Shown one piece after another: positions 34,061-64,000 of a DNA stretch of 64,000 bases. This stretch comes from Xiphophorus maculatus. Taxonomy: Eukaryota; Chordata; Actinopteri; Cyprinodontiformes; Poeciliidae. The DNA is taken from the NCBI RefSeq assembly GCF_002775205.1, contig NC_036457.1:4139650-4203649 (forward strand). Direction: 5' to 3'. The translations under genes were made by a program, and so were the position numbers. The notes under the pieces are model-generated. The model was not told the DNA's origin. It made no database searches and saw only the letters and a program-made list of their open reading frames with translations. Each line of letters starts with the position of its first letter. The first letter of the stretch is position 1.

Positions 34061-37000
34061 TTAGATTAGATTAGATAGCATTTATTGTCATTGAACAGAA
34101 TTCAACGAAATTTCCATTGCAGCTCCCGTGCAAAAGGTCAAATATATACAGTATAAATAAAATAAACAAACACACAATAATAATAATAACAATATATACA
34201 ACTAAATTAACTAAAGGCACTCAACCACACCAAAGAAGTAGCAGCAGGTCCAATTATGGCAAAGTACAGATAATGTGACAGTGCAAAGTGCAGAACAATA
34301 TGGCTGTGTGGGGGTGGGGGATATGTATGTGTGACTGCGAGGTTATGATATGTGTGGGAGGGGGGGGCGGCAGGGAGTAATGGCTCTGACGGCTGTGGGG
34401 AAGAAACTGTTTCTCAGTCTATTTGTTGTAGTCCATATATTCCTGTACCGCTTGCCTGATGGCAGCGGCACAAACAGTCTGTGGCCCGGGTGGCTGGAAT
34501 CCATCGCTATGGATCCAGCTCTCTTCTTGACCCGGTCTGTGTAAATGGAGTCCAGGTCTGGGAGGGGGCATCCCACAATGCCTTGTGCTGTTCTCACCAC
34601 CCGTGTCAGTTGTTTCCTCTCCAATGCTGTGCAGCTACCATACCACACAGTCATGTTGAGGCAGAGGATGCTCTCGATCATCGCCCTGTAAAAGTTCACG
34701 AGCAGCCGTGAGGAAAGTCCAGCCCGTCTCAGTTTCCTGAGGAAGAAGAGCCTTTGTTGTGCTTTCTTCACCAGGTGGGAGGTGTTTGTATTCCAGGAGA
34801 GGTCAGACGTGATGTGGAGGCCCAGGAACTTGATGTTGTCCACACGTTCCACCACTTCTCCATCTATGAGAAGGGGAGTGTGATCCGTCCTCCTGGACCT
34901 TCTGTAGTCCACAATGACCTCCTTGGTCTTCCCTGTGTTCAGCACCAAGTTGTTGGCTGAACACCACTGAGTGAGCTGCAGAATCTCCTCTCTGTAGTGG
35001 GTCTCGTTGTTGTCTGAAATGAGACCCACTACTGTTGTGTCGTCCGCGTACTTCACGACTGTGTTGGTGGGGTGGATGGCCACGCAGTCGTGTGTAAACA
35101 GGGTGAAGAGAGCTGGGCTGAGCACACAGCCCTGCGGCGTGCCTGTGTTGAGGACCAGTGGGGACGATGTTGAGCCACTTATTCTCACCACCTGAGGCCT
35201 GTTGGTGAGGAAGTCTCTGATCCAGTGGCACAGTGAAGCGGGCAGCCCCACCTCGAGTAGCTTCAGCACCAGCTTGTCTGGGATGACGGTATTAAATGCT
35301 GAGCTGAAGTCTACAAATAGCATCCTGACGTAGGTGTTGGGATGCTGCAGATGGGTCAGGGCTGTGTGCAGAGTGATGGAGACAGCATCCTCTGTTGACC
35401 GGTTCGCTCTGTAGGCGAACTGAAGGCTGTCCAGGTTTGCGGGGATGAAGTCTCTGATGTACCTCAGAAGAATCCTCTCAAAGCACTTCATGATCACCGG
35501 GGTCAGAGCGACGGGCCGGTAATCGTTCAGGCTGGTGATGGACCTCTTCTTCGGTACAGGGATGATGGTGGAAGACTTGAGGCACTCAGGAACCATGGCG
35601 AGCTGCAGGGACAGATTGAAAATGTCCAGAAACACTCCTGCCAGCTGGTCGGCGCAGGTTTTCAGCGTCTGGCCTGACACCTTGTCCGGTCCTGGAGCTT
35701 TGTGGGTGTTGATCCTCCTCAGGGTGGACGTCACCTGATGCTTCTGTAAGACGAGGGGCTGGTGCTGCTCTTCCAGTTGGGGTAGATGTACGGCTTCTCT
35801 GCTGCCCGCCGTGTCAAAGCGGGCAAAGAAACTGTTTAAGGTGTCAGGCAGGGTGGGGTCGCAGCTGGTCAGCTGAGTGCTGTGTTTGTAGTCCGTCATG
35901 GTTCTAATGCCTCTCCACATGCTTCGGGGGTTGTTGTTGATGAAATGTTCCTCAATCTGCTGTTTGTACTGGAGCTTGGCCTGCTTAATGCCTTTTTTCA
36001 GTTCCGACCGGGCCCTGATATAAGCCAACCTGTCTCCAGACCTGTAGGCAGCATCCCGGGCTTTCAGCAGGGCCCGTACTGTGCTGTCCAGCCATGGTTT
36101 CTGGTTTGGAAACACTTTTATGGTCTTAACAGGGAGGACAGCGTCGGTGCAGAACTGAACATAGGACAGAACGGACGATGAGTATTCCTCCAAGTCTGCG
36201 CCGTCCCTGAACACACTCCAGTCTGTATGCTCAAAGCAGTCCTGAAGTGCAGAGGAGGCCTCCTCAGTCCAGACCTGAACTATTCTGGTGGTCGGCTTAG
36301 TTCTGCAGGCCAGAGGCTTGTAGACAGGAATCAGCTCCACTGAGATGTGGTCAGACATGCCCAGATGTGGAGCTGCTACAGCCTTGTAGGCTCCGGGGAT
36401 ATTGCAGTAGACCTGGTCCAAAATGTTATTGTCTCTGGTGGGAAAGTTTATGGATTTGTGGAATTTGGGAAACACAGCCTTCAGTTCCACGTGATTGAAG
36501 TCCCCCGCCACAATCACGGCCGCCTCCGGGTTGGAGTTCATCTGCACGCTGATCAGGCAGTACAGCTCCTCTAATGCTAGCTTAGCATTAGCCCTCGGTG
36601 GTATGTAGACGGCCACGATCACAATGGACGAGAGTTCTCTCACCAACTTGAAGGGTCTGCATTTCACCGCCAGATATTCCAAGTCAGGAGAGCAGAATGT
36701 TCCGACAGAGTGTGTGGCTGTACACCAGGCATTGTGTACATACAATGCCAAACCTCCGCCTCTGCCCTTACCCGAAGCTGCAGTCCGATCCGCCCGGAAC
36801 AGAGCGCGCCCCGTTATCTCCACCGCTGCGTCCGGGATGTTATCCTCCAGCCAGGTCTCTGTGACAACAGTCACACAGCTGTCCATCCGGCGAGAAGTAA
36901 TCCGGAGTCGCATCTCGTCGATTTTGTTGACGAGGGACCTGGCATTGGCGAGGAAGAGGCTGGGGAGGGCCGGTTTATGAGGGCTAGCTTGTAGCCTAGC

Positions 37001-37165
37001 ACGCACGCCAGCTCTCTTACCCCTCTTTTGTTTGCGCTGCCTCCTCCGTCGCCTTGGCAGCAGGGGGGGAATGATCATAGTCCCAGGTGTTCGTAGCAGC
37101 TCTGGAGGAATAAAGTCCAGCTTGGTGGGTGTGTGAAGTCCAAACTGTGTTCCTATGTATAACAA
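34061..37165 (-). mobile_element. Nearly full-length LINE (L2/CR1/Rex1-type non-LTR retrotransposon)
   Basis: The minus-strand element ends with ...CAATGACAATAAATGC and TAATC units, the tail of a non-LTR element. It contains one long open endonuclease-reverse transcriptase frame. No separate ORF1 was seen, so the 5' end may be truncated near 37160. Clear target duplications were not found; the flanks are AT-rich. Confidence 0.85.
34343..37078 (-). CDS. LINE endonuclease-reverse transcriptase polyprotein
   Basis: The frame gives 911 residues from the first ATG (37078); it is open for another 29 codons upstream without an ATG. After a basic Arg/Lys-rich start comes an apurinic-type endonuclease: [30 protein letters not shown] and SDHISVEL supply the Asn, Glu, Asp and His signatures. 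The reverse transcriptase follows: [35 protein letters not shown] (motif A), [14 protein letters not shown] (motif B) and [12 protein letters not shown] (the YADD active site), then [13 protein letters not shown]. The enzyme nicks target DNA and copies its own RNA. No stop interrupts the frame and every catalytic motif is present, so the copy is young. Confidence 0.9.
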
Positions 37166-38634
37166 TAGTAATTAAATATTTTAATACATTCAAATAAAAT
37201 ACATTCTTTTTATAACTATTGATATTAAAAATATTATTATGATTATCTTAAAAAGATGCAGGGTTGATGGATTGATCCATGGATTCTCAAAACAAAGTAA
37301 CAAATATTGGAAATAAGACATTTACTTTTTCCCAATAGTCAATAATTGTTAACTTACAGCTGCTCTGTCTAAAGAAGTTACTTGAAAGTAACTGTAACTG
37401 TGGAAACTAGACAAAGTATTTGGTGAGATTTTGTGTTTTTCAATGTAACAAAGCAGATGAAATAAAATATTATATGGTAAGGAACCATTTTCTGTCTGTC
37501 GGCTGAACTCAGCTGGTTGTTACGTTTATTTTCCGTCTGAAGTGCATGAGAGACGCAGCGCAAGTCACAAAATGTACGGCACAAAAAAGAGAAACTGCAC
37601 CTTTAGTTTTGATAGAAGTAAATAAAAAAGAGGAAAGTAACAGAGGAAATGCACATGTGCTTTTATTTCTATAGAGATTGTCTCATTGACTTGAATGGAG
37701 CTGCACTGATAAAGAACAAAACGGTTCCATGATGCTGAATTTTACTCAGGTTTGTGCATTAATTAAATTTCCTCTTCAGAAAGTCACAAAGCTGTGAAAA
37801 GCTGCTGAACTGCTGGAATAAATGAACAAATGTTACTTATATTGGTAACTAAATACGTCAACAATAAGATGCCGTCCTTCTAGACTCTTTTCATGTTTTC
37901 ATCTTTTGGTTTTTCCCCAGATGTGAAATTGTGAGATTCTGTATTTACTCAGTTTTGTAATTTGCGGTTCTGATCTGTGCTGGGGAGGGAAAGAAACCAC
38001 TCGTGAACTGGGTCACTCCGAGTCAGGCTGACCTCTTTTCTGCAAACTTCCTCCCAGCTCTGACTCTTGTAAAAAACAAACCTATCTCACCTTCAGACCT
38101 TCTGCAGACCACAACTGGGACGTCCTGGTCTGATGCCTCCACGCTCTTTACCAGCAGAACCAACCTTTTCAAACGCCGAAACGTCTGGGTACAGATCAGA
38201 TCATTTAAATATCTAATGTCAGGGTTTCTGAACTTCTTCCGTCGCATTGAATAAAACTGACAGAAAGTCAAATGAGAAACAATTTTTGTCTCAACCTGGC
38301 AACGTGGAGGTGGAAAAGTGTGTCAGTGACAAATACCTGAAAGCAGTTTCTTATGATCTCCTGAGGTGTAGCTGCAGCAGTGGTTCAATGGTTTTGTACA
38401 TATTTCCTGTTGATTAGAACTTTATAATGAGAAATCTGCTGCTTCTGCTGTTAACAGACATTTGAACCAGAAACAGAGGAAGAAATGACAGGAAGTAGAA
38501 GCATCTGCACAGAAAGTTCTGCACTCATTTGATCACACGACCTATTTAACAATAACCACAAATGTGTAATTTATTCAGAAAAGTGCCAGAGGTTCAGTTT
38601 ACAGTACTTCAGGTTGTTCTAGTAATGGATCATA

Positions 38635-39990: not shown

Positions 39991-40354
39991 CTCCTCTTCT
40001 TGTTTTCAAAATGTTTCTCAGTGTTTCTTGCCTAAATACATTAATCAGATCACCGAAGCTTTGATACATGCAGAACTTTAGTCAGATCTTCTTTGACTTT
40101 CTGTCTGTACTTTTTAATTCATGATATCAACTGAAAACAATATCTACACTCAAGCTATAATTTAAAAAGAATTTTCTGACTTTGAATGTTTTTACTTGTT
40201 GACCCTTCAGTTTGTGATTAATGTTAACATTATTTCCACCTGCAAGTTTTTAATGACGGTTAGAGTATTTTGTTTGGAATTACTGTTTTTTATTGTCTTA
40301 TTTTAATATATTAACAATAAAGTTTCTCTTTAACTTTTATTACAGCAAAACAAG

Positions 40355-41485
40355 ATGAACATCTCCAATGACTCCACTGCTCCTCCCTATGAATATGATG
40401 AAAATTACCCTGATTATGAACCGTGTTCTTTCAGTAACAACAACAGTTTGAACGTTGTGGTTGGTCCTTACATTCACTCCATCATCTGCATCCTGGGCTT
40501 GGTGGGGAACAGCCTGGTCATCCTCACCTATGCCCTCTACAAGAGAACCAAATCCATGACTGACGTCTACCTGCTCAATGTGGCCATCGCTGACCTGCTG
40601 TTCGTGCTGGCTCTACCTTTCATCGTCTACAACGAGCTGTACTCTTGGCCGATGGGGCAGGTGGCCTGTAAGCTGCTGCGTGGTTCCTACAGCGTCAACC
40701 TGTACAGCGGCATGCTAATGTTAGCCTGCATCAGCACCGACCGCTACATCGCCATCGTCCAGGCTCGCCGAAGCTTCAGGTTACGTTCGGTGTCAAACAG
40801 TCGCATTATCTGTTTCCTGATCTGGATCTTTGCCTTACTGGTGTCTGTTCCCACTTTCCATTTCCACCATTGGTACGAACCATCACATAATAACATCATC
40901 TGGCTCAACAGCAACGAACAGGAAGAGACAACAGATCCACAGTACGTCTGTGAGTTGAAATTTGATGACAGCAACATTGCTAGCATAGTGAAGGTTGCTG
41001 TTCCCAGCACCCAACTGGCCATTGGCTTCTTCCTGCCGCTATTCATCATGATCTTCTGCTACACTTCAGTCATCATCACCCTGCAGAAAGCTAAAAACTT
41101 CCAGAGACACAAAGCTGTCCGAGTGGTGATGGTGGTGGTGCTGGTCTTCATCGTCTGCCACTTGCCTTACAACCTGGCCTTGTTCTATAAGACAGCCAAT
41201 TTGTTCAAACACATTGATTGTGACGAGGAGGACTCACTGCGTACGGCGATGTCTGTGCTGCAGATGGTCGCCTACCTGCACTGCTGCCTGAACCCGCTGC
41301 TGTACGCCTTCATCGGAGTGAAGTTCAGGAACCACTTCAGGAGGATCTTCCGTGACCTGTGGTGTTTGGGTAAGAGGTACATCGACCCGCGCCGTTTCTC
41401 CAGGGTCACTTCGGACACCTTCATGTCCACAATTCGTCGCTCGGTGGATAGCTCCAGTGAAAACGGCACGTCTTTTACCATGTGA
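40355..41485 (+). CDS. ccr6: C-C chemokine receptor type 6, copy 1
   Basis: 376-residue seven-helix receptor in one coding exon. CCR6 senses CCL20 and guides lymphocytes and dendritic cells to mucosal tissue. Seen: N-glycosylation sites near the start (NIS, NDS), an acidic tyrosine-rich N-terminus (YEYDENYPDYEPC), the four chemokine-receptor cysteines, SMTDVYLLNVAIADLLFVL (helix 2), DRYIAIVQARRSFRLRS after helix 3 (CCR6-like), FIVCHLPYN (helix 6), HCCLNPLLYAFIGVKFRNHF (helix 7/8) and a Ser/Thr tail ending NGTSFTM, close to human CCR6 ASSFTM. The ATG follows a splice acceptor by nine bases, so a 5' exon lies upstream. Adjacency to cep43 matches human FGFR1OP-CCR6. This is the only plus-strand copy. 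Confidence 0.93.
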   Translation: MNISNDSTAPPYEYDENYPDYEPCSFSNNNSLNVVVGPYIHSIICILGLVGNSLVILTYALYKRTKSMTDVYLLNVAIADLLFVLALPFIVYNELYSWPMGQVACKLLRGSYSVNLYSGMLMLACISTDRYIAIVQARRSFRLRSVSNSRIICFLIWIFALLVSVPTFHFHHWYEPSHNNIIWLNSNEQEETTDPQYVCELKFDDSNIASIVKVAVPSTQLAIGFFLPLFIMIFCYTSVIITLQKAKNFQRHKAVRVVMVVVLVFIVCHLPYNLALFYKTANLFKHIDCDEEDSLRTAMSVLQMVAYLHCCLNPLLYAFIGVKFRNHFRRIFRDLWCLGKRYIDPRRFSRVTSDTFMSTIRRSVDSSSENGTSFTM

Positions 41486-43689: not shown

Positions 43690-46272
43690 TGTTGCATGGA
43701 GGGCACTGATGAGAACAAGCTCCAGGAAATAACTGAAAAAACTCCAAATGTTATTTATATCAGTGTTAAATCAGCATCATTATCACACTCTCTACTTTTA
43801 AGACTATGCTTAAAATGAACTTTTTAAAACTGATAGTTAAACTGGCTCAGGTTGTCCTGATCACCTGTACAGTCCTGCTGCTGCGGCCTCAGGATAACCA
43901 CCTCCTACTACTCTCACAGTTTGCTTTATTTACTATTATTTTATGTTGACTGAATCTTTTCTGTCAGTTTTTAACTTTTTATAGAAAATACACCTGTTCT
44001 GGTGTTCTGTTTACCTGTAACACCTTGCTGGAGAGCGGGGCTTTTATTGTGAAATACCTTGAGGCGACATGTTGTGAATTAGTTATGTATAATTAAATCA
44101 ATTAATCAGCAGTAGTGTTCTTAAAAGCCCATTTACAGTTTTATTATTATATTTTATTTTGATAAAAAAGATGTGATTTAATCCTTTTCTGTTCTAAAAC
44201 CTCATAGTTTACTTAAACTTGGGGCCCTAAAGGCCCAAGTCCTTCGCTCTGATTGGACCAAAGTATCTTATTATTGTCTGGGAACATATTAGATCAAAAT
44301 AAATAGGAGAAGGGAAAAACTGAGGCTGATTAAACTGTAAGTTTCCTTCCTAAATGTGACATGTAAATATCAATTTAGCTGAAAAAATGTACATTTTGGC
44401 CAGAAAATACCTCAAAGTATCTAATAACAGGCTGTTAGCAAAGCCAGCTACGATTTAATCTGCAGTAAAAAGTTTTCCAGGGCCAGAGAAGCAGCTCAGG
44501 TGCAGGGAAATGGAAGAAACTGGAGTCAAGTGGACACTAGAACTGGTTTGGAACTGGTGAAGATGGAAAATGTAACTGTGTTGCCCAGGATTCACAGATA
44601 AATATCAGAATATCATCTGCATATCGAGGAATTTCTGCTGCTTTTTCTTTTATTTGATGGAAACAAACAGTTCAAGCACAGGACCTTGTGGGATACCTCA
44701 GTATTTATTTATAGACCTGCTGGGGAAACACCTGTTTGTTATTTGAGGACAGAGGACTAGTTCAATCCCTGAGTTTGGGAACTTTAACATTAAAAAACTA
44801 AATTTTTTAAAGAATTTCTGATTAATGTGGGTAAAAGCACTAAAGTCTAAAAAACATTTTTACAGAGCCACATTATGAGATAACAGGAAGGTCTGACTGC
44901 TTGGATGTGACAAAAACTTTATGGATAAAAAGCAGTAAATACATTTTAAAGATATAAGAGTTCAGCATAAACAACAGAATATAAGCCAAAGTTGATCCAT
45001 ATTTGATTTCCATAAAATACTCATAAAATCAGACATTTTCCAATCATTTCCAAATCTCATGTTTCTGTAATTTCAGCTCTAAAAGTTGGATTTTATGTCT
45101 GGATTATATTTTCTCTCAGACGATTGCTTCATGTTGCAGCTCAGGATCACATTAGTAATCCAGACACATGCAGGATATTAAACTGAGGAGAGGAAATATG
45201 AAAGAGAGCCATTCAGGCCGGAGACACTGCAGCTCTGTTGGCTGTTTGAGGGAAGCAACGCGCTGACTGCAGGAAACACAGCCGTTCACTCACAGCTCCA
45301 AGGATAAAACTGTTTCTGCTCGTCAGATTCCAGCCTGAGGAAGAGGAGGAGAGATTCAGAGGAAGGAGACACAAACCAGTTAAATACTGGAGGCAGCTTT
45401 ATTCTCCAGTTGGATCGGAGTGAAACATTCAAGACTTGAAAACTAAGACATCATTTTAGTTTAATCTGACAGGAAGCAGAAACAGCCCTTAATCTAATCT
45501 GGTCCTGATGGGAAAAACTCCCAAATCATCAAACCTCCACCAACTTTTCGGTAGATTTTGAGGGTATTTGCTGCCTTTCAAAGATTGATGGACAGCAACA
45601 GTTGCTTCTCTAGAGGCATTGCTGGTTGTCTTTTCACCTGGATGTGGTTGACACACCTGTGTGCTCCAGAGCAGGAAAAATCCAAAACGTTTTATTCCAC
45701 CAATAACCAGGCAATTGCTCTGGTCAACCCAGTGGGACCAGAGCATGCCTTACATTTCTGTTGAGACATTTATGAGTTCATGTTTATCACAGATTAGATT
45801 ACCTCAGGATGTGACACCGTCGACCTGAGAGGTTTTGGGCTCTTCGGCCCTCAAAAGGCTCTTAATATTTTAATAAACAGACAACCAATGCTAAGCTGTG
45901 TGATTTGACGTCACATCTATAAAACTTATTTTTGTTTATTTGTTTCATGTAAATCGTACTTTATTTCTTAATGTTGCCTTTATTTATTTCTAGTTGTCCT
46001 CATTTTTTAAAATATATGTTCAATATATTTCATTCTATTCCTCTTTTTCTGCTCAATAAAGATAATTTATCAGGCGATAAACCAAATTATCATTGATTAA
46101 CACATATATGTTTTTATTAGCTGTAAGCAATAATAATCAAAATGAATGTATTTAATTTACAAATTGCACTTTTTGAACTGAATTACTGGTTAAATTAACT
46201 GATACTTTTACTGAACTGGGACTCGAACCAGCAACCTCCCAGCGGAAGGCACCGCGGCTGACCCGGTTCGGG

Positions 46273-47403
46273 TCACTTGTCCAGGCTGAGGACGAACGGT
46301 ACCAGGGACCCGCGGGCCTCCGCGGGACCCGGAAGCACCTCCGACAGGAAGCCCTCGCGCTCCTCACGCACCTCGAACTGCAGCGCGTGGCCGCGGCTCA
46401 CGCAGTAGATGCGGTCTCCGAGCACCGCACAGCGGAACGGCTGCGGGTTGTCGAGCGGGAAGCGCGCGCCGCCGAGCCACACCTTCACCAGCGTGTTGTA
46501 CCTGTACACGCTCACGGCCGCGCGCTCCCGCTCCACGTCGAAGCGGTAGATGAGGCTGCGGTGCGCCACCATGTCGGCGGAGCGCCGCCGGCTCTCGTTG
46601 AACGGACACTCCTCCCACTCGTCGCGGCGGCTGTCGTATCGCAGCAGGCGGTAGAAGAGCGAGCCGCCGGACACGAACAGCGCGCCGCCGCACGCAACAG
46701 CCTCGTGCGCGACGGCAAAGGAGCCTCTGGGCAGCGGAGCCACGTGAGCCCACCTGTCCGCGCGCGGGTCGTAGCGCTCCACGGTGAACAGACACTCCCC
46801 CCCGATGGCGTACAGGTGTCCGTCCATGGAGACCAGCCGCAGCTGGCAGCGCGGCTGCGTCAGCGGGCGGACCCGGGTCCAGAGGCCGGTCCGCGGGTTG
46901 AAGCAGAACACCCGGTCCGACGCCGTGGAGCGGCCGTCCTGCGTCCCCATCCCTCCCGCCACGAACAGGTAGTTGTAGAGGGTGCACATCCCGGAGCCTT
47001 TAGCCGGGACTTCCTCCGGCAGGACGGTCAGCAGCTCCCAGCGCTGGGAGTCCGGGTGGAGGCAGAACACCCGGCGCGGGGCGGGGTCCTCCCGCTGCGG
47101 GCTCTGCGGGCGGCTGCTGTCCAGCACCTCGGAGGTCTCGGCCACCGCCAGCACCTTCCGCCCCTCCATCCTGCGGGCCAGGATGAGCTCCCTCTCCGCG
47201 GCGGTGAGCCGGCCGAACACGGCGGGGCTCCGCAGAACCTGCAGGTACTGGTCACTCATGAAGTCCAGCAGCCGCTGCTTGTCGCGCTCGGAGCCGCAGC
47301 GCTTCGCCTCTTCCAGCAGATCGTAGCAGTTTTCCGCGGTGATCTGCGGCAGGTTGTCGCTGCGGTCTGGATGCTTCACCTCGTCCGCTGCCATCTGGTC
47401 CAT
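46273..47403 (-). CDS. kbtbd11: KBTBD11-like BACK-Kelch protein without a BTB domain
   Basis: Single-exon, 376-residue frame. Residues about 1-85 (TAENCYDLLEEAKRC, LDFMSDQYLQVLRSPAVFGR) resemble the BACK region of KBTBD11. Residues about 110-376 form Kelch repeats: LYNYLFVAGG, LYAIGGECLFTVERYDPRAD, VSGGSLFYRLLRYDSRRDEW and YRYNTLVKVW. KBTBD proteins are usually substrate adaptors of CUL3 ubiquitin ligases, but the BTB domain that binds CUL3 is absent. An in-frame TGA lies a few codons upstream of the ATG and the preceding sequence looks like 5' UTR. An upstream BTB exon is not excluded, because a weak acceptor (CTGACAG) sits just before the start. The coding sequence is very GC-rich, unlike its AT-rich neighbours. 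A phase-shifted open frame on the other strand is a by-product of that composition. Confidence 0.8.
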   Translation of the reverse strand: MDQMAADEVKHPDRSDNLPQITAENCYDLLEEAKRCGSERDKQRLLDFMSDQYLQVLRSPAVFGRLTAAERELILARRMEGRKVLAVAETSEVLDSSRPQSPQREDPAPRRVFCLHPDSQRWELLTVLPEEVPAKGSGMCTLYNYLFVAGGMGTQDGRSTASDRVFCFNPRTGLWTRVRPLTQPRCQLRLVSMDGHLYAIGGECLFTVERYDPRADRWAHVAPLPRGSFAVAHEAVACGGALFVSGGSLFYRLLRYDSRRDEWEECPFNESRRRSADMVAHRSLIYRFDVERERAAVSVYRYNTLVKVWLGGARFPLDNPQPFRCAVLGDRIYCVSRGHALQFEVREEREGFLSEVLPGPAEARGSLVPFVLSLDK

Positions 47404-47730
47404 AGTTACCGGCTCGGTTCGATCGGGATCCTGTCAGGCCCAGTGATCACCTTTTTAATAAAATCCTCAGCAGTTGACGCCCAGTTCGCTGCGCTCTTTC
47501 ATTCACTCTGTTGCTTCAAGTTTCCCTCCTGCTCTTCTTCTCCTCCGGGGCGCGGCGGCTGCAGCCGGGCCGTGTCTCCGGACACAAAGCCGGACACTGA
47601 CCGCTGGACTCCTCCTCCTCCTCCTCTAGACTGGACTTCGCGTCTACGCCCTGCAGGCGGAACTCCGGCTGTTTGGTGGAACAATGGCTTTGCAGAACCT
47701 CCCAGAATGCAGAAAGTTGGGCGGGAAGAA
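47404..47730 (-). promoter_or_regulatory. Likely 5' UTR and promoter of the kbtbd11-like gene
   Basis: GC-rich stretch directly upstream of the start. CCTCCCAGAATGCA (47699-47710 region, ZNF143-type) and TTGGGCGGGAA (47717-47727, E2F-type) are typical of CpG-island promoters. Transcription would run leftwards from about here. Confidence 0.45.
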
Positions 47731-48058
47731 AAATATATAAAAAAACATAAATGGATGATAAATTCTGAAATAAAACACAAAATGCTGGTTTGTTTCTGTG
47801 TTTCTATGTGAAGCGAGTTGCTGTCCTTGGTGCTGAACCGGGACCAGGTTGACCCAGCAGGATGTGCAGCAACCAGAACCAACAAGCAATTCGGACAAAT
47901 TACAAGCAACTCCATCTATATCAGGCAGAACCTCTAAACAAATGAAGATCCGGACTCAAATCGATCATTAATTAACTCCTTAGCTTAATTAAAAGATTAA
48001 TTTATTATTTTCTTGAATGCATTAACAGGATTTCTGCACATTCTGGTTTCCAAGCTAT

Positions 48059-51222: not shown

Positions 51223-52242
51223 TTACCAGCACAGGTTCTGGAAGATCCTCCTGAAGTGGTTCCTGAAGTTCACTCCAATGAAGGCGTACAGCAGCGGGTT
51301 CAGGCAGCAGTGCAGGTAGGCGACCATCTGCAGCACAGACATCGCCGTACGCAGTGAAGACTCAGCGTGACAATCACGAAGTTCGAAATAACTGACGGTG
51401 TCATACAACAAGGCCAGGTTGTAAGGCAAGTGGCAGACGATGAAGACCAGCATCACCACCATCACCACTCGGATCGCTTTGTGTCGCTTGTAGTTTTTAG
51501 CTTTCTGCAGGGTGATGATGACTGAAGTGTAACAAAAGATCATGATGAATAGCGGCAGGAAGAAGCCAATGGCCAGTTGGGTGCTGGGAACAGCAACCTT
51601 CACTATGCTAGCAGTGTTAATGTCATCAAATTTCCACTCACAGACGTACTGTGGATCTGTTGTCTCTTCCTCTTCGGTGATGTTGAGCCAGGTGATCTCA
51701 TTATGTGTTGGTTCGTACCAATGGTGGAAATGGAAAGTGGGAATAGACACCAGTAAGGCAAAGATCCAGATCAGGAAACAGACAATGTGGCTGTTTGACA
51801 CTGAGCGTAACCCGAAGCTCCGGCGAGCCTGAACAATGGCGATGTAGCGGTCGGTGCTGATGCAGGCTAACATTAGCATGCCGCTGTACAGGTTGACGCT
51901 GTAGGAACCACGCAGCAGCTTACAGGCCACCTGCCCCATCGGCCAAGAGTACAGCTCGTTGTAGACGATGAAAGGTAGAGCCAGCACGAACAGCAGGTCA
52001 GCGATGGCCACATTGAGCAGGTAGACGTCAGTCATGGATTTGGTTCTCTTGTAGAGGGCATAGGTGAGGATGACCAGGCTGTTCCCCACCAAGCCCAGGA
52101 TGCAGATGATGGAGTGAATGTAAGGACCAACCACAACGTTCAAACTGTTGTTGTTACTGAAAGAACATGGTTCAGAAAGTCCATCATCATTGCTCTCGTT
52201 GTAATCGTAGGCTGAATAATCAGAGTTAATGGAGAAGTTCAT
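51223..52242 (-). CDS. ccr6: C-C chemokine receptor type 6, copy 2 (shortened tail)
   Basis: 339 residues. Helices 1-7 are almost identical to copies 1 and 3, including SMTDVYLLNVAIADLLFVL, DRYIAIVQARRSF and HCCLNPLLYAFIGVNFRNHF. The N-terminus (MNFSINSDYSAYDYNESNDD) differs and starts MNFS, like the internal MNFS of human CCR6. The frame ends ...FQNLCW soon after helix 8 begins. By comparison with copy 3, about five bases are missing in the LWCxGKR codons, which shifts the frame into a stop; about 35 residues of Ser/Thr-rich tail are lost. That tail normally takes phosphorylation and arrestin, so signalling or internalisation may differ. The start ATG lies nine bases after a conserved acceptor. 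Confidence 0.88.
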   Translation of the reverse strand: MNFSINSDYSAYDYNESNDDGLSEPCSFSNNNSLNVVVGPYIHSIICILGLVGNSLVILTYALYKRTKSMTDVYLLNVAIADLLFVLALPFIVYNELYSWPMGQVACKLLRGSYSVNLYSGMLMLACISTDRYIAIVQARRSFGLRSVSNSHIVCFLIWIFALLVSIPTFHFHHWYEPTHNEITWLNITEEEETTDPQYVCEWKFDDINTASIVKVAVPSTQLAIGFFLPLFIMIFCYTSVIITLQKAKNYKRHKAIRVVMVVMLVFIVCHLPYNLALLYDTVSYFELRDCHAESSLRTAMSVLQMVAYLHCCLNPLLYAFIGVNFRNHFRRIFQNLCW

Positions 52243-52699
52243 CTTGTTGCACTGTGATAAAAGTCAACAAGAAAGTCAATCAAATATGTTAAATTAAGAT
52301 AACAGAAAGCATTGATTCCAAACAAAACACTTTCTGTTATTGTTTTTCATGTCTGGTCCTTTGGCACCACGGCCTGCATGTTTTAGGTGTTACCTTTCTG
52401 ATTCACAGCCGTCTGCAGCACTTGATGGTAAGCAGAGGAGGTCATGCAATCATCTCAATCAGGTGTTGTGCAACAGAGAAAATATAAAATATGGAGGGCA
52501 GTAGTCCATGAGAACAGGGATTCAGACATTGGACATGCCCAGAAAATTTCCATCATCTGTGGTTTGGGTACTTTAGGATCTCAGAGCTGAGATCCTAAAG
52601 TCTCAGAACTTAGGATCTCAGGCATATTTGTGGAGAGAACTATACACATGTTTAAGGCTTTCATATGTTCATAAAAGCCAGAAACAAGATCAGTGTCAA

Positions 52700-55539: not shown

Positions 55540-55919
55540 TCTGGATGGTTCTGTTCGCCTCCCTCCTCTTTGCTTCTTCTTAACAAAAACTCTTTACATT
55601 TTCATAGAGTGAGATTTTTAAAGAGGAAAAAATTTAAAAAATATATATTTTTTTATTTTTTGACACAACACAAAGCATTTGTCTGGTATTAACAGCTGTT
55701 ATGCTTAACTAAAAACTGAAAGTCCTGATCCATGTCCTGCTTCTGTTGAAGTGAATCCAAAACAAGGCTTTTATGTCTACAACCTTTATGATGCTTTAGA
55801 CAAAAAAAGATTTAGATTACTTTTATACAAACAATACATTTATTTGTTTACTAAATGAAAATATTGTACATTGTTATACTTTGTAATAATAACAATAATA
55901 ATAATATATTAATGATAAT

Positions 55920-56924
55920 GATTTGGTGAGCATGGCAAGTTCGCAATTTGGCCACTCCCCCTAGACATGGTCAAAAACTCAAGATTTTGATAACTTTTAA
56001 CCCTCCATTTCTTAACTGCATATTGAAAGAGGCTGAAGCCAATAGCTCAAAACCATTGGAGAAAGACTCCAAAGTTTGAGTTGTGTAAATGTGAAAAGAG
56101 GCTGAAATGACCCAAAACAGCAACCTCCCTGTAGATTTCAGGACATATTTAAGAGACTTTGTTTACTTGATTTTTGGAGCATCCACCTACATAACCAGTT
56201 TCAAATTCCTAGGATGTACTATTTTTATCTGTTTACACGTTGAGCAGTTTGACCACACCCACTTTTGATTCCATTAAAAAATTTTAATGCGAGGGACAGA
56301 TATGGTGAAAATTGGTGAGTTTTCAGATATGCTCAGGTTCCTGAATTAGTGTTTTTGGATGGAAAAGCAGAAACTGAGCAACAATTAACACAGATGATGA
56401 AGTTTGTTTTTGTTTTCTCTTTTAATCCTTTTTAAGTCTAACATATTGTGGCTGAACTGTGCTTGAGAATAAAAGTAATTTTCAGTTTTAGTCAAGTTTG
56501 GCATTTATAGACCTCCATGGCAAGATCAGAGCTTCTCACACAAATATCTTCATGTAAGAAAAGATGTGCTGGTTCTGCCGCGACCGTCAACCGAGCGGCG
56601 AATTGTGGACATGTAGATATCGGATGTGACCCTGGATGAGTGGCGCGGGGCGATGCACCTCTTACCCGCGCACCACAGGTCATGGAAGATCCTCATGAAG
56701 TGGTTCCTGAAGTTCACTCCGATAAAGGCGTACAGCAGCGGGTTCAGGCAGCAGTGCAGGTAGGCGACCATCTGCAGCACAGACATCGCCATACGCAGTG
56801 AAGACTCAGCGTCACAATCACGATGTTCGAAATAACTGACGGTGTCATACAACAGGGCCAGGTTGTAAGGCAAGTGGCAGACGATGAAGACGAGCATCAC
56901 CACCATCACCACTCAGACCGCTTT
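55920..56924. repeat. Segmental duplication, left copy
   Basis: About 1005 bases nearly identical, in the same orientation, to 61316-62319. It contains a dispersed-repeat segment, the ccr6 3' flank and the 3' third of a ccr6 coding region. The boundaries are sharp at GATTTGGTGAGC on the left and at the GATCGCTTT/GACCGCTTT word on the right. Confidence 0.9.
56550..56924 (-). pseudogene. ccr6: ccr6 3' gene fragment
   Basis: It encodes only helices 6-7 and the C-terminal tail (LVFIVCHLPYNLALLYDTVS... ending RTSTSFLT). It differs from ccr6 copy 3 by only a few residues, for example Cys for Tyr in AGKRCIAPR and GRGR for GPSR. Helices 1-5 are absent because the duplication ends inside the gene. 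Sequence upstream of 56924 is unrelated, so no receptor can be made. Confidence 0.9.
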
Positions 56925-58700: not shown

Positions 58701-59023
58701 AATCACAAGTTGATCTTTAGACCTTATTGTTAAATAAAGACAATAACACAAGTTGTAGATATTAAATTTTTCTATACAATAACTAAATAGTATCTCAACA
58801 GTAACATAGCATCATGAATGCTCTCATGTAATTCACGCACATGTCCACCAGGCGACGTGTTTGGCAAATCTCCCAAGTCACCTTCAGTTCAGTTCAGTCT
58901 GAGTCCAACAGCAAGTCTTTAAGGTTAGGTTAAGAACTGACAGGAGGAATTGTCACTTCCTGTTTCCTCATATATTGGCCACGACTTGCTGCAGGCTTTT
59001 GAACACATTATGTTAGTGGATAC

Positions 59024-60056
59024 TACGGTGGCCGACAGGTGCAAATGCGCAGCAAAAGAGAAACATGCAAACAAACAAAAAAAAACACGCGCACAAATTA
59101 AATGCGGCAAGCAAAAAGAGAGACGCAAACACCCCCGAATGAAATGCAGCAAACAAAAAGTGTTGAAAACGGAAGTGCTCCAGACCACTAGGGGGAGTCA
59201 AAGAAAATAGTATTCATTTCTATGGGACCAGATGCAAGATTCAGAGAAAGAAATTTGAAAGAAAGTAAAGGTATCTCTCTGAATCTTGCATCTGGAAAGT
59301 GTGATTATTGTGAGAAGTCTGAAACAATAGAGGATGTTATTTTAGAGTGTTGTAAGTATGAAGAAGAGAGAAGATGCATGCTGAGAGAGTGTGTAGGTAT
59401 TAAAGAAAGGTTTAATTTAATAGAATTTTTGAGGAGAGATTTCGGGAGTAGACATATTCAAATAATTATTCGGTATCTTAAAAAAACAAAGCTATTTCAT
59501 AGGATATGAGTAGAGCAAGTTGGGTGTGAGTGTGTAAAGAATATCAAAGAGGGGTATATAAAGCTATAAGCAAGTTGGATAATATAAGCAGGTGTGTATG
59601 TGTGGGGGTATGTTTAATCAGGAGTTAATGGAGGGAAAAGGTAGAAAGTGAAAGTTTATAGACCATCTCGAACCACACTCCATACTGGTAAGTGGCGGTA
59701 ATGCTACTGTAAGTTTGTTGCCAACCGCCAATAAATACCAAGAAGAAGAAGAAGAAGAATCTTGCATCTGGTCCCATAGAAATGAATACTATTTTCTTTG
59801 ATTCCCCCTAGTGGTCTGGAGCACTTCCGTTTTCAACACTTTTTGTTTGCTGCATTTCATTCGGGGGTGTTTGCGTCTCTCTTTTTGTTTGCTGCATTTC
59901 ATTCGGGGGTGTTTGCGTCTCTCTTTTTGTTTGCTGCATTTCATTCGGGGGTGTTTGCGTCTCTCTTTTTGCTTGCCGCATTTAATTTGTGCGCGTGTTT
60001 TTTTTTTGTTTGCATGTTTCTCTTTTGCTGCGCATTTGCACCTGTCGGCCACCGTA
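59024..60056. mobile_element. Composite long-TIR DNA element, copy 2
   Basis: Same structure as 13164-14185 in inverted orientation: TACGGTGGCCGACAGGTGCA ends, a 6-bp duplication GGATAC on both sides (59018-59023 and 60057-60062), arms of about 230 and 300 bases with one and three copies of the 42-bp unit, and a palindromic centre holding a LINE tail. The arms differ in a few words from copy 1 (for example AATTAAATGCGGCAAGC), so the copies are related but not identical. Confidence 0.87.
59296..59756 (+). mobile_element. 5'-truncated LINE 3' end nested in composite copy 2
   Basis: Flanked by GAATCTTGCATCTGG (59281-59295 and 59757-59771). It is open to 59509 and encodes a reverse-transcriptase tail with [18 protein letters not shown], the Cys-rich motif found near the end of I/Nimb-group proteins. 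A 3' end with AAGTGGCGGTAATGCTACTG and a (GAA)n terminus follows. Confidence 0.72.
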
Positions 60057-60479
60057 GGATACCCTTTCAATCTCCTGTCACACACTGGGACATACTGGAG
60101 AATTCAATCTGGAGAGACTCAGACGGAGAAAAGGGAAGCAATTAGAAAAGTTTATTAGCAGCATGATTTAAATCTTTGGCGCTCGGGCCCCAGCTGAGGA
60201 CTTTGATTATCGCAAACTTGCGATGGGCTCGGATGAGCATTCCATATGCTGTTAGGAATGTCATCCCCCGGGACCCGGCACTGGTGGTGGAGGCCATGAA
60301 GGATGCGGCCGGATAGCCGAGCGAGTGGAGGTGAAGGGGTGGAGGTGGGTTGAGCTCTGCTGGAAAGCGCAGGATGCCATGGATGGTGGTCCTTATCAGC
60401 TAGAGCTTGGACGGTGATTGGACATGACGAGTCTTGGACCGGCGCTGATCAATCAACAGTGATGAGCCGGAAGCTTCGG

Positions 60480-61315
60480 TTGGATGATGTAGGTGGGGCT
60501 AAAAGAGGCTTCGAGTTTGAATTTGCGCCTAGGCTTCATGTCACCAGTTTGTTCATTGAGTGGGCGGGGCTTAGGTGATGTCATAAATATCATCAAGGTC
60601 TTACATATCCAGTTTGGTGCAAATCGGACAATGCGTGTTGATTTAGAGCCAACTGGATGCAAACGGCGAAGGATTGGAATTTGCCAATCTGCCAGGCCCA
60701 GTTTGGTAAAATAAGCGACTTCCTTTTGGAAGGGGGCGGGGCTAAAGTGATGTCACCATCTGACTATGTGAATGTGATGATTGCTGGTCTGTTATGACCA
60801 GCAATCATAACAGACTGCTGGTCATAGTGAGATGAAGCTGGGAGTTGGCGCGAGAACATCTTGGTGTTTTATGGCGAATGGTCAGATTTTGAAGCTTCGC
60901 CACGCCCGCATGCTTTCATGAAGAGGAAAAAAAAAGCAGTGGGAGAAGTTTGCTCAGATCTGTGTGCAAAAGAGATAAAATAGTGACTTTGATCCAAAAT
61001 GGCCAACTTCCTGTGGAAGTTACACATATATACAATTTCATTGCTGTTGATCAAAGGATGGGTTGGGGTTGATTTTTAAAAAAATTGTAGGGGGATGAAT
61101 TATTCCACACAAACTAAATATTAGGATTAGGACTGATCATATCGAATGTGGAGCAGATCGACTGAAACATTTAGAGCCAGACGTATGAACACAGGGGCGG
61201 GGATGTGATGATGTCAGCATATAGCCACATAGTAACATCCAGTATACAACATGGATGACTCAGATTAAGGCTGGTGTAATTCAGCCATTGTTGTGAAAGT
61301 TACAGCATTTCCTTT
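60480..61315 (+). repeat. Dispersed teleost repeat
   Basis: GGGCGGGGCTTAGGTGATGT, CAGTTTGGTGCAAATCGGAC and related words are typical of a long non-coding repeat common in fish genomes, as I recall it. Its further course (GGTGAGCATGCCAAGTTCGC onward) continues into the duplicated block at 61316. Class unassigned. Confidence 0.45.
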
Positions 61316-62319
61316 GATTTGGTGAGCATGCCAAGTTCGCAATTTGGCCACTCTCCCTAGACATGGCCAAAACCACAAGATTTTGATAACTTTTAATCCC
61401 CCATTTCTTAACTGCATATTGAAAGAGGCTGAAGCCAATAGCTCAAAACCATTGGAGGAAGACTCCAAAGTTTGAGTTGTGTAAATGTGAAAAGAGGCTG
61501 AAATGACCCAAAACAGCAACCTCCCTGTAGATTTCAGGACATATTTAAGAGACTTTGTTTACTTGATTTTTGGAGCATCCACCTACATAACCAGTTTCAA
61601 ATCCCTAGGATGTACTATTTTTATCTGTTTACACGTTGAGCAGTTTGACCACACCCACTTTTGATTCCATTAAAAACTTTTAATGCGAGGGACAAATGTG
61701 GTGAAAATTGGTGAGTTTTCAGATATGCTCGGGTTCCTGAATTAGTGTTTTTGGATGGAAAAGCAGAAACTGAGCAACAATTAACACAGATAATGAAGTT
61801 TGTTTTTGTTTTCTCTTTTAATCCTTTTTCAGTCTAACATATTGTGGCTGAACTGTGCTTAAGAATAAAAGTAATTTTCATGTTAGTCAAGTTTGGCATT
61901 TATAGACCTCCATGGCAAGATCAGAGCTTCTCACACAAATATCTTCATGTAAGAAAAGATGTGCTGGTTCTGCTGGGACCATCAACCGAGCGGCGAATTG
62001 TGGACATGTAGATATCGGAGGTGACCCTGGATGAGTGGCGCGGGGCGATGTACCTCTTACCCGCACACCACAGGTCATGGAAGATCCTCATGAAGTGGTT
62101 CCTGAAGTTCACTCCGATGAAGGCGTACAGCAGCGGGTTTAGGCAGCAGTGCAGGTAGGCGACCATCTGCAGCACAGACATCGCCATACGCAGTGAAGAC
62201 TCAGCGTCACAATCACGATGTTCGAAATAACTGACGGTGTCATACAACAGGGCCAGGTTGTAAGGCAAGTGGCAGACGATGAAGACGAGCATCACCACCA
62301 TCACCACTCGGATCGCTTT
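61316..62319. repeat. Segmental duplication, right copy (probable source)
   Basis: Partner of 55920-56924. Here the block is continuous with an intact ccr6 gene on one side and with more of the dispersed repeat on the other, so this is the likelier donor. Confidence 0.9.
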
Positions 62320-63066
62320 GTGTCGCTTGTAGTTTTTAGCTTTCTGCAGGGTGATGATGACTGAAGTGTAGCAGAAGATCATGATGAATAGCGGCAGGAA
62401 GAAGCCAATGGCCAGTTGGGTGCTGGGAACAGCAACCTTCACTATGCTAGCAGTGTTAATGTCATCAAATTTCCACTCACAGACGTACTGTGGATCTGTT
62501 GGCTCTTCCTGTTCGGTACTGTTGAACCAGGTAATCTCATTATGTGATGGTTCGTACCAATGGTAGAAATGGAAAGTGGGAACAGACACCAGTAAGGCAA
62601 AGATCCAGATCAGGAAACAGACAATGTGGCTGCTTGACATCGAACGTAACCTGAAGCTCCGGCGAGCCTGGACGATGGCGATGTAGCGGTCGGTGCTGAC
62701 GCAGGCTAACATTAGCATGCCGCTGTACAGGTTGACGCTGTAGGAACCACGCAGCAGCTTACAGGCAACCTGCCCCATCGGCCAAGAGTACAGCTCGTTG
62801 TAGACGATGAAAGGTAGAGCCAGCACGAACAGCAGGTCAGCGATGGCCACATTGAGCAGGTAGACGTCAGTCATGGATTTGGTTCTCTTGTAGAGGGCAT
62901 AGGTGAGGATGACCAGGCTGTTCCCCACCAAGCCCAGGATGCAGATGATGGAGTGAATGTAAGGACCAACCACAACGTTCAAACTGTTGCTGTCACTGAA
63001 AGAACACGGTCCATAACCAGAATGGTCGTAATAATAGTCGTCTGTGTAATTATCTGAGGAGTTCAT
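61945..63066 (-). CDS. ccr6: C-C chemokine receptor type 6, copy 3
   Basis: 373 residues, complete. The N-terminus MNSSDNYTDDYYYDHSGYGP is strongly acidic and tyrosine-rich (candidate sulphation sites) with an NSS glycosylation site. The seven helices match the other two copies almost residue for residue, with DRYIAIVQARRSFRLRS and HCCLNPLLYAFIGVNFRNHF. The tail keeps the Ser/Thr cluster (SSRVTSDIYMSTIRRS) but ends TSTSFLT, not SFTM. The ATG lies nine bases after the TTACAG acceptor, as in copy 1, implying a 5' leader exon to the right. Confidence 0.92.
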   Translation of the reverse strand: MNSSDNYTDDYYYDHSGYGPCSFSDSNSLNVVVGPYIHSIICILGLVGNSLVILTYALYKRTKSMTDVYLLNVAIADLLFVLALPFIVYNELYSWPMGQVACKLLRGSYSVNLYSGMLMLACVSTDRYIAIVQARRSFRLRSMSSSHIVCFLIWIFALLVSVPTFHFYHWYEPSHNEITWFNSTEQEEPTDPQYVCEWKFDDINTASIVKVAVPSTQLAIGFFLPLFIMIFCYTSVIITLQKAKNYKRHKAIRVVMVVMLVFIVCHLPYNLALLYDTVSYFEHRDCDAESSLRMAMSVLQMVAYLHCCLNPLLYAFIGVNFRNHFMRIFHDLWCAGKRYIAPRHSSRVTSDIYMSTIRRSVDGPSRTSTSFLT

Positions 63067-64000
63067 CTTGTTTTGCTGTAATAAAAGCCAAAGAGAAAGT
63101 TAATTAAAATATGTTACAATTAAGGCATTTGTTACTTCAAGGCTGTAGTTCAGTAATTCTTTAGAATGCATCAATTTGTTTCTGTTTGTGTTTTAAGTGC
63201 CTTAAAGTGACATTTCTTATGACTTTAAGAATGTTTCACTGATTTCACCAAACAGGTTCTCAGTCCAGTTTTAGAAAACTTCAGGATGAAGGACGGATGT
63301 TTCCAACAGTTTGAACAAAAAGCTAAACAACATTCACTGACTGGCTGTTTCTCTGTCCGTATGTAGATGTGTTCATAATCATCTCTTCACACAACCTGCC
63401 TTTTCTCACAAGAGGAAGGAAAAACACAAACCATATTATATGCAAATAGTCACATGAATGTCAGAGGAAGTTAAAATGACCTTTAAATAAGTAAATATGT
63501 TTACTCAAAATCAAGTTTCCTTAGAAGGTCCATTCAGAGATTAGGAAAAACATTTTAACAGTAACAATTGGGTAATAAACTGATTACATATTCACTGCAA
63601 GATTTTTACAATTTATTACTTTGTTGTCTTTTAAATTTTTCTAAAATTCTCATTCTGAAGAAACAGTTTCCAATCAATCAAACTTTATCTGTAGATAAGT
63701 TTCAATAGAAATGGCTTAAGTGCACTGTCCTGGTTAAAACAGGCAGACAGGAAAAAAAACACAAAGCAGGAGTTAACTTTTTACATCAACTGTACAAAGG
63801 GAAAAGACAAATGCTTCCTTACATTCCCTCTTGTTCTTTTCCTGAACTGATTGGTCATTTTATTGTTTTCACAATAAACGTATATTAAATATGGCGTAGA
63901 ATATAAAGTTAAATTATTTCATTCCCATGTGTTATTTCCTGGAGTGACACATCACCACATACTGGGTGAATAAAACATTTTGGCAAAATCTGAGATTCTA
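63067..64000. other. Upstream flank of ccr6 copy 3
   Basis: It holds the acceptor of the last intron just beyond the start codon and then AT-rich DNA. No leader exon could be identified. Confidence 0.5.

Follow-up and report, generated by a model that had tools for sequence, protein, structure and literature searches.

How did two copies of a DNA element in one stretch of the Xiphophorus maculatus genome come to carry the same piece of a LINE at the same internal position? The stretch, 64,000 nucleotides long and referred to here as the window, lies on contig G000:C15 of an assembly that comprises 101 contigs and 704 Mb. A first-pass annotation of the window had placed the two copies at 59024-60056 (copy A) and 13164-14185 (copy B), coordinates that proved exact, and had described them as a "twice-mobilised" composite in which a LINE inserted once into a DNA element that subsequently moved with its load. 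The features of the two copies are as follows.

59018-59023, + strand: target-site duplication (TSD) GGATAC, left of copy A
59024-60056, no strand assigned: copy A, LINE-loaded palindromic IS3EU-type non-autonomous element, 1033 bp
59024-59247, + strand: left arm of copy A, 224 bp, complementary to the right arm
59248-59275, + strand: loop at the palindrome centre of copy A, 28 bp
59281-59295, + strand: first LINE target duplication of copy A, 15 bp, GAATCTTGCATCTGG
59296-59756, + strand: LINE tail of copy A, 461 bp, 5'-truncated
59757-59771, + strand: second LINE target duplication of copy A, 15 bp
59772-60056, + strand: rest of the right arm of copy A, from the second LINE duplication to the right end
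59839-59987, + strand: 42-bp tandem repeat array in the right arm of copy A
60057-60062, + strand: TSD GGATAC, right of copy A
13158-13163, + strand: TSD CTAAAG, left of copy B
13164-14185, no strand assigned: copy B, LINE-loaded palindromic element, 1022 bp
13364-13378, - strand: LINE target duplication of copy B on the LINE 3' side, 15 bp
13379-13833, - strand: LINE tail of copy B, 455 bp, its CCHC reading frame interrupted by a premature stop
13834-13848, - strand: LINE target duplication of copy B on the LINE 5' side, 15 bp
13882-14185, - strand: right arm of copy B, 304 bp
13969-14125, + strand: 42-bp tandem repeat array in the right arm of copy B
14186-14191, + strand: TSD CTAAAG, right of copy B

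Both copies are palindromic non-autonomous DNA elements with TACGG...CCGTA termini, arms 220-305 bp long and a loop of 28 bp, one side of which is interrupted by the LINE, and the predicted fold of copy A is a single long hairpin whose longer arm contains a gap. The two arms of a copy differ from one another at 2 positions, and arms compared between A and B differ at 9-10 (gaps uncounted). The outer terminal inverted repeat (TIR) is of the older, long-element type in both arms of copy A and of a derived type in both arms of copy B. As the annotation had reported, neither copy encodes a transposase and each is flanked by a 6-bp duplication of its own; the duplications, GGATAC and CTAAAG, differ and are exact over 6 bp, with no match at a seventh. 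At up to 3 mismatches, the outermost 21 bp are found at 4 places in the window and at none in 100 shuffles, and in a scan of the window for TAYGG/CCRTA pairs (48 + 50 sites, spacing 80-9000 bp) the only pairs with identical 6-bp flanks were copies A and B.

The shared load was likewise as described, the same LINE tail at the same internal position with the same 15-bp duplication in both copies. The tails, 455-461 bp long and flanked by GAATCTTGCATCTGG, are 8 substitutions apart and lie in opposite orientations in A and B. In copy A the tail consists of the C-terminal CCHC end of an RT protein followed by the 3' UTR and a (GAA)n tail; the reading frame has decayed in both copies, with the CCHC His lost in A and a stop in B. 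Since the GAA of the 15-bp repeat may belong to the (GAA)n tail, and its CTGG is also found in relatives of the LINE, the part attributable to the target only is TCTTGCAT. The rest of the window was searched for an empty target site, and none was found. Array lengths are swapped between A and B (2/4 versus 4/2 units when counted in LINE orientation), which might have marked a single inversion; we dropped this idea because array lengths in both arms vary by 42-bp steps across elements.

Elsewhere in the window, a cluster of related receptor genes occupies 40334-41485 (+), 51223-52263 (-), 56550-56912 (-, partial) and 61945-63099 (-); its three long frames match 7tm_1 with E of about 1e-60, and we take the cluster, by resemblance, to be chemokine-receptor-like. 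A Kelch-repeat frame at 46276-47433 (-) has a 544-codon open frame opposite it (46177-47811, +), and 28007-28644 is a minisatellite with a 17-bp unit repeated about 38 times, several of its frames being open. Another LINE, at 34343-37171 (-), contains a 942-codon open frame matching RVT_1, together with endonuclease matches below cut-off and a match named ALKBH8_N.

Two receptor segments of the window, 55919-56924 and 61315-62319, are 97% identical, and duplication of this sort could in principle have produced copies A and B from one locus, an outcome that would have undone the proposal of a mobile composite. However, comparison of the 3-kb flanks on each side of A with those of B revealed no significant similarity (best E 0.49), which argues against segmental duplication, the TSDs of the two copies differ, and most TSDs across the genome are distinct from one another (see below). 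We therefore give this origin next to no credence.

The annotation had suggested searching the genome with the terminal bases of the element, counting copies with and without the LINE, verifying 6-bp duplications at other loci and looking for an autonomous relative with the same termini. When up to 3 mismatches were allowed, the 29-base terminus matched 299 + 295 = 594 places, and a reversed control matched none. We examined 53 two-ended elements, comprising both window copies and 51 others on contigs C1-C6; the latter were taken from the first 100 of the 594 ends listed, all of which are perfect 29-bp matches, and the sample therefore leans to young copies. Two loci (L086 and L089) were omitted because no second end was found. 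The LINE is present in 43 of the 53 elements and absent from 10. Exact 6-bp TSDs flank 47 of the 53 (38/43 loaded, 9/10 not loaded); not one of the 47 extends to 7 bp, and they represent 44 distinct sequences. Flanking repeats of 3, 4, 5 and 8 bp were seen at one element each and repeats of 7 or 9 bp at none (n = 53), the 8-bp repeat, GGGGCAGG, standing in place of a 6-bp one at L037 (G000:C1:20938604-20939348), which has the same ends. L011 and L007 have an exact 6-bp repeat if an irregularity at one end (1 bp and 13 bp, respectively) is allowed, the repeats of L003 and L081 contain 1 and 2 mismatches, and L067 is without a repeat. G or C occupies positions 1 and 6 of the TSD in 67 of 94 cases, and A or T the inner positions in 151 of 188.

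The composite is far more numerous than "twice-mobilised" implied: mobilisation itself stands, and the number was too low, as the junction of the loaded form (up to 3 mismatches) occurs at 107 + 123 = 230 places genome-wide, with none in the control. The centre of the empty palindrome occurs at 28 places within 3 mismatches: 21 are exact, 3 have a single mismatch and 4 have three, and the control gave none. The places with three mismatches are the second arm of L083, the rearranged centre of L064, the left TIR of L094 and a site on C21 that lies 3 kb from another transposase match. Our figure of about 24 empty palindromes is a pattern count, 3 of them having been read, and the pattern counts cover copies with up to 3 mismatches; on these counts (230 versus about 24) loaded palindromes are roughly ten times commoner than empty ones.

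Several lines of evidence indicate that the LINE entered the carrier once. The LINE 5' junction is identical in all 43 loaded elements, and both junctions are letter-perfect in 41, with L081 and L082 each having one change in the 3' 15-bp repeat. Removing the LINE and one 15-bp repeat in silico converted 36 of these 41 centres into the centre of L062 and L063, which are real LINE-less palindromes, with identity over 84 bp; the centre of L083, also LINE-less, differs from it by 1 base. In the 41 elements with both junctions exact, the LINE invariably lies on the same side of the asymmetric loop. The cargo sequences of the 43 copies (~462 alignment columns) have a mean pairwise difference of 0.51% and a median of 1 substitution from the majority sequence, and the burst is therefore recent. 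At columns 238 and 287 of this alignment the four allele combinations are found in 7, 5, 3 and 28 copies (43 in total), which suggests exchange between copies or recurrent change.

Could a hot spot next to the loop instead have drawn separate LINE insertions into different palindromes? Hairpin loops could be favoured nicking sites, and the TTC of the target can pair with the GAA tail, a pairing that would also be expected in target-primed reverse transcription of a single insertion. Independent insertions, however, would have had to choose one 5' truncation base in 43 of 43 loaded copies and one side of the loop in 41 of 41, with LINE sequences that are on average only 0.5% apart, and we regard them as extremely improbable. 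The single insertion that the annotation proposed, followed by movement of the loaded element, is borne out by the one truncation point and insertion site that all 43 loaded elements share at different loci, 38 of them flanked by 6-bp duplications that are exact. At the 5' junction, the LINE and the target have CTGG in common, which would fit a microhomology join.

With regard to the source of the cargo, the LINE motif is preceded by ACTGG or ACAGG, and not by carrier sequence, at eight places. Two of these relatives, L096 and L097, match the cargo at 98.5% over 467 bp and 98.9% over 469 bp, respectively. L096, the one relative read at length, has a (GAA)n tail and continues upstream of the truncation point: its CCHC-ending frame also contains RVT_1 (1.2e-37) and RNase_H (4.9e-10) matches, and upstream of it are an endonuclease frame (Exo_endo_phos_2, 4e-21) and a frame with a zinc-knuckle match below cut-off. 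A LINE with endonuclease, RT, RNase H and a simple-repeat 3' tail is presumably of the I type. The LINE tail on its own gave nothing significant in Pfam (best E 0.23) and no match in PDB.

What kind of element is the carrier? IS3EU families are described, in the text of the source available to us, as having TA..TA ends and usually 6-bp TSDs (PMC10045372), and the available part of a study of fungal IS3EU elements gives TAYGG..CCRTA ends and TIRs over 30 bp (PMC12730594). TACGG..CCGTA is found in both window copies, in the 100 of 594 genome ends listed and at both ends of an 11.2-kb element; the arms of the window copies, at 220-305 bp, and the TIRs of a second long element, L061 (360 bp at 98% identity), far exceed 30 bp; and in addition to the 47 of 53 exact 6-bp TSDs, the 11.2-kb element is flanked by TTTTTG. 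Judged on these sequence characters, the ends and duplications match the IS3EU/GingerRoot superfamily.

The two long elements share the ends of the palindromes. L061 is 4868 bp long, with the TSD CCCAAC, and includes the C-terminal portion of an integrase core (rva_4, E = 1.6e-5, 0.8 bits under the curated cut-off) as well as a zinc-ribbon match below cut-off. A protein search with this integrase piece returned 29 genome matches, five of which, L061 included, are identical over the whole piece. The other element, 11,165 bp long and comprising L094 and L095 (G000:C21:23168810-23179974), holds another of these five identical pieces and has the same ends and TIR; it is a candidate for the autonomous relative with shared termini for which the annotation had recommended a search. 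It contains a 262-codon open frame with an integrase-type match (rva_4, E = 5.5e-22; rve and HTH_21 below cut-offs), followed by the frame seen in L061. In this putative transposase we take D152, D211 and E252, with 40 residues between the last two, to be the DDE residues, an assignment made by motif. On the strand opposite the transposase is a frame that matches HECT below the cut-off (E = 0.037), and the element also contains a Tc1-like fragment, likewise a sub-threshold match.

L061 and the 11,165-bp element are 93-98% identical in several aligned blocks, and the ends of L061 align with the short derivatives L037, L039, L044, L066 and L073 and with the LINE-less palindromes; on these alignments the carrier therefore derives by deletion from an IS3EU-type element. 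What links the palindromes to the putative transposase of the 11.2-kb element is the ends and the TSD length that they have in common. Against PDB, neither the transposase exon (E 0.63) nor the second-gene piece (E 0.76) gave a significant match, and four pieces of L061 gave no useful match in NCBIfam. Relatives of the transposase piece at 38-69% identity lie on C6, C19, C7, C13, C22, C96, C21, C4 and other contigs; these distant relatives, some of which score equally, suggest further IS3EU-type families.

Duplications of 6 bp are made by other superfamilies as well. Published Dada transposons make 6-7-bp duplications and occur in fish, and hAT6 is given with 6 bp in a reference list within the available text of PMC12730594. 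However, published Dada transposons are without terminal inverted repeats and reside in small RNA genes, whereas the TIRs here exceed 200 bp and the TSDs differ: the 44 distinct sequences among 47, and a window with no tRNA, would weigh against insertion into snRNA or tRNA genes. Moreover, the long element with the same ends contains an integrase core exon and not a hAT or Dada transposase. We rejected a Dada identity on the long TIRs and the integrase-type exon, and an origin from any such superfamily is hardly credible beside the IS3EU/GingerRoot assignment.

The outer TIRs and internal repeat units of the 53 elements bear upon the order of events. Among the LINE-less elements, 9 of 10 have the long-element outer TIR in both arms (L061 has one unclassified arm), and all 10 have a 53-bp unit in at least one arm, with a 42-bp unit in none. 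Among the loaded elements, a 42-bp unit is found in at least one arm of 41 of 43 and a 53-bp unit in none; the outer TIR is shortened in both arms of 39, of the long-element type in 2 (copy A and L043) and unclassified in one arm of a further 2, with no element clearly mixed. These types and units therefore give the order long element, palindrome, LINE insertion, shortened ends and burst, in which copy A is of the older type and copy B of the newer.

The order would be reversed if the LINE-less palindromes were loaded copies from which the LINE had been precisely deleted, the loaded form then being ancestral, and the 15-bp direct repeats could indeed permit such deletion by recombination. Loss of this kind would nonetheless have left 42-bp units behind, and the LINE-less elements have none, their units being 53 bp long in 10 of 10 and those of the loaded elements 53 bp long in 0 of 43. 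We consider this history very unlikely and retain the empty palindrome as the earlier form, although occasional LINE loss may account for some empty palindromes, as 3 of about 24 empty centres were read.

The two arms of an element appear to change together. When outer arms were compared as sets of 14-mers, mean similarity was 0.826 within elements versus 0.722 between elements, and none of 2000 shuffled pairings reached the observed within-element mean. The fraction of T-type units in one arm is correlated with that in the other (Spearman 0.80, n = 43), and no element of the 43 combines an all-T arm with an all-C arm; array lengths of the two arms are weakly correlated (0.37, P = 0.015). For 24 of 86 arms the partner ranks first or ties for first, its median rank over all arms being 11 of 85, and exchange between arms is therefore partial. 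The likely cause is such partial exchange, which may take place by gene conversion or hairpin copying.

Alternatively, the likeness of arms within an element might reflect subfamily structure, given that elements split into C-rich and T-rich unit groups and that the partner is the best or tied match for only those 24 arms. In the absence of exchange, however, a change in one arm would stay without a counterpart in the other, and the within-element excess that no shuffle reproduced, together with the lack of all-T/all-C elements, points to transfer between arms. We thus find subfamily structure an improbable explanation, and favour exchange.

Taken together, these observations make it highly probable that we are dealing with a composite non-autonomous transposon of the IS3EU/GingerRoot type, with a history in five steps. 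An element of the 11-kb class, with inverted ends of ~360 bp and an integrase-type transposase, would have given rise to internal deletion derivatives, one of which was cut down to its two ends as a near head-to-head palindrome with a 28-bp loop. A LINE encoding endonuclease, RT and RNase H would then have placed its truncated 3' end once into this palindrome, near the loop. Transposase from full-length relatives would have moved the loaded palindrome in trans, with 6-bp duplications left behind, until it became about ten times as common as the empty form. The arms would meanwhile have kept exchanging sequence, such that both arms of an element change together, while the 42-bp arrays may have grown and shrunk. 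The forms named from the long element to the loaded palindrome are present in the genome; their order we infer, as we do mobilisation in trans by that transposase and the role of gene conversion in exchange between arms.

Whether the LINE helped its carrier is a separate matter. Hairpin instability is to be expected of a near-perfect palindrome whose loop is 28 bp long, and the insertion turned the loop into a spacer of ~0.5 kb; a palindrome stabilised in this way may explain the excess of about 10:1, an idea that we put forward tentatively and think more apt to be wrong than right. If it were true, a chance retrotransposon insertion would have acted as a stabiliser that set off a burst, in a transposon whose arms are kept matched by mutual copying. 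The long element, deletion derivatives, the empty palindrome, loaded palindromes with two end-types and relatives of the LINE all coexist in this genome. With all forms in one genome and loaded copies that are young, the succession of steps can be followed almost directly. The loaded copies, which vary in arm length and unit type, form a natural series in which to ask how palindromic transposon ends stay alike, and the same series bears on whether palindromes transpose better with a spacer.

Known systems share parts of this picture. As in IS3EU/GingerRoot elements, the ends are TAYGG..CCRTA, the TSDs are 6 bp, the TIRs exceed 30 bp and the long copy has an integrase-type DDE; unlike the elements in the available text of those reports, the window copies are without a transposase, are near-perfect palindromes and have a LINE fragment inside (PMC10045372, PMC12730594). 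The TET-bearing IS3EU elements of fungi are described there with TET and alpha-kinase genes, whereas the second gene of the long copy here is weakly HECT-like (PMC12730594). Galileo of Drosophila likewise has long TIRs with variable numbers of tandem repeats and 98-100% TIR identity within a copy, but belongs to the P superfamily, and the accessible portion of its description does not mention LINE cargo (PMC3573991). Tetris of Drosophila virilis is also a non-autonomous foldback element with variable TIR tandem repeats and possible homogenisation; it differs in its 8-10-bp duplications and three structurally complete copies, and LINE cargo is again not mentioned in the portion available (PMC4079207). 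A literature search of open-licence papers found no LINE-loaded IS3EU palindrome, nor any paper containing the end sequence as text, and exact-pattern scans of viral contigs and prokaryote genome contigs gave no match.

The closest parallel is MER6/MER6A, a mammalian composite MITE with a SINE inside, according to the part of the source available to us (PMC6887750). There, as here, a retroelement lies in a deletion-derived MITE and the loaded MITE was then amplified to hundreds of copies (PMC6887750). The window copies and their relatives are composite MITEs in the same sense, being short TIR elements without a transposase and with a retroelement inside (43 of 53 loaded, 230 loaded junctions), and since MER6 has been published the kind is already known. 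MER6, as far as that text describes it, is a Tc1/Mariner element with TA duplications and SINE cargo, whereas the present composite is an IS3EU-type palindrome with a LINE tail; MER6 is old (19-22% from consensus), whereas copies here are 0.5% apart; and the parents of MER6 were not found in mammalian hosts, whereas here the empty carrier, a long relative and LINE relatives coexist (PMC6887750). What is new is the presence of a LINE inside an IS3EU-type palindrome, with the intermediate forms in one genome and arms that change together.
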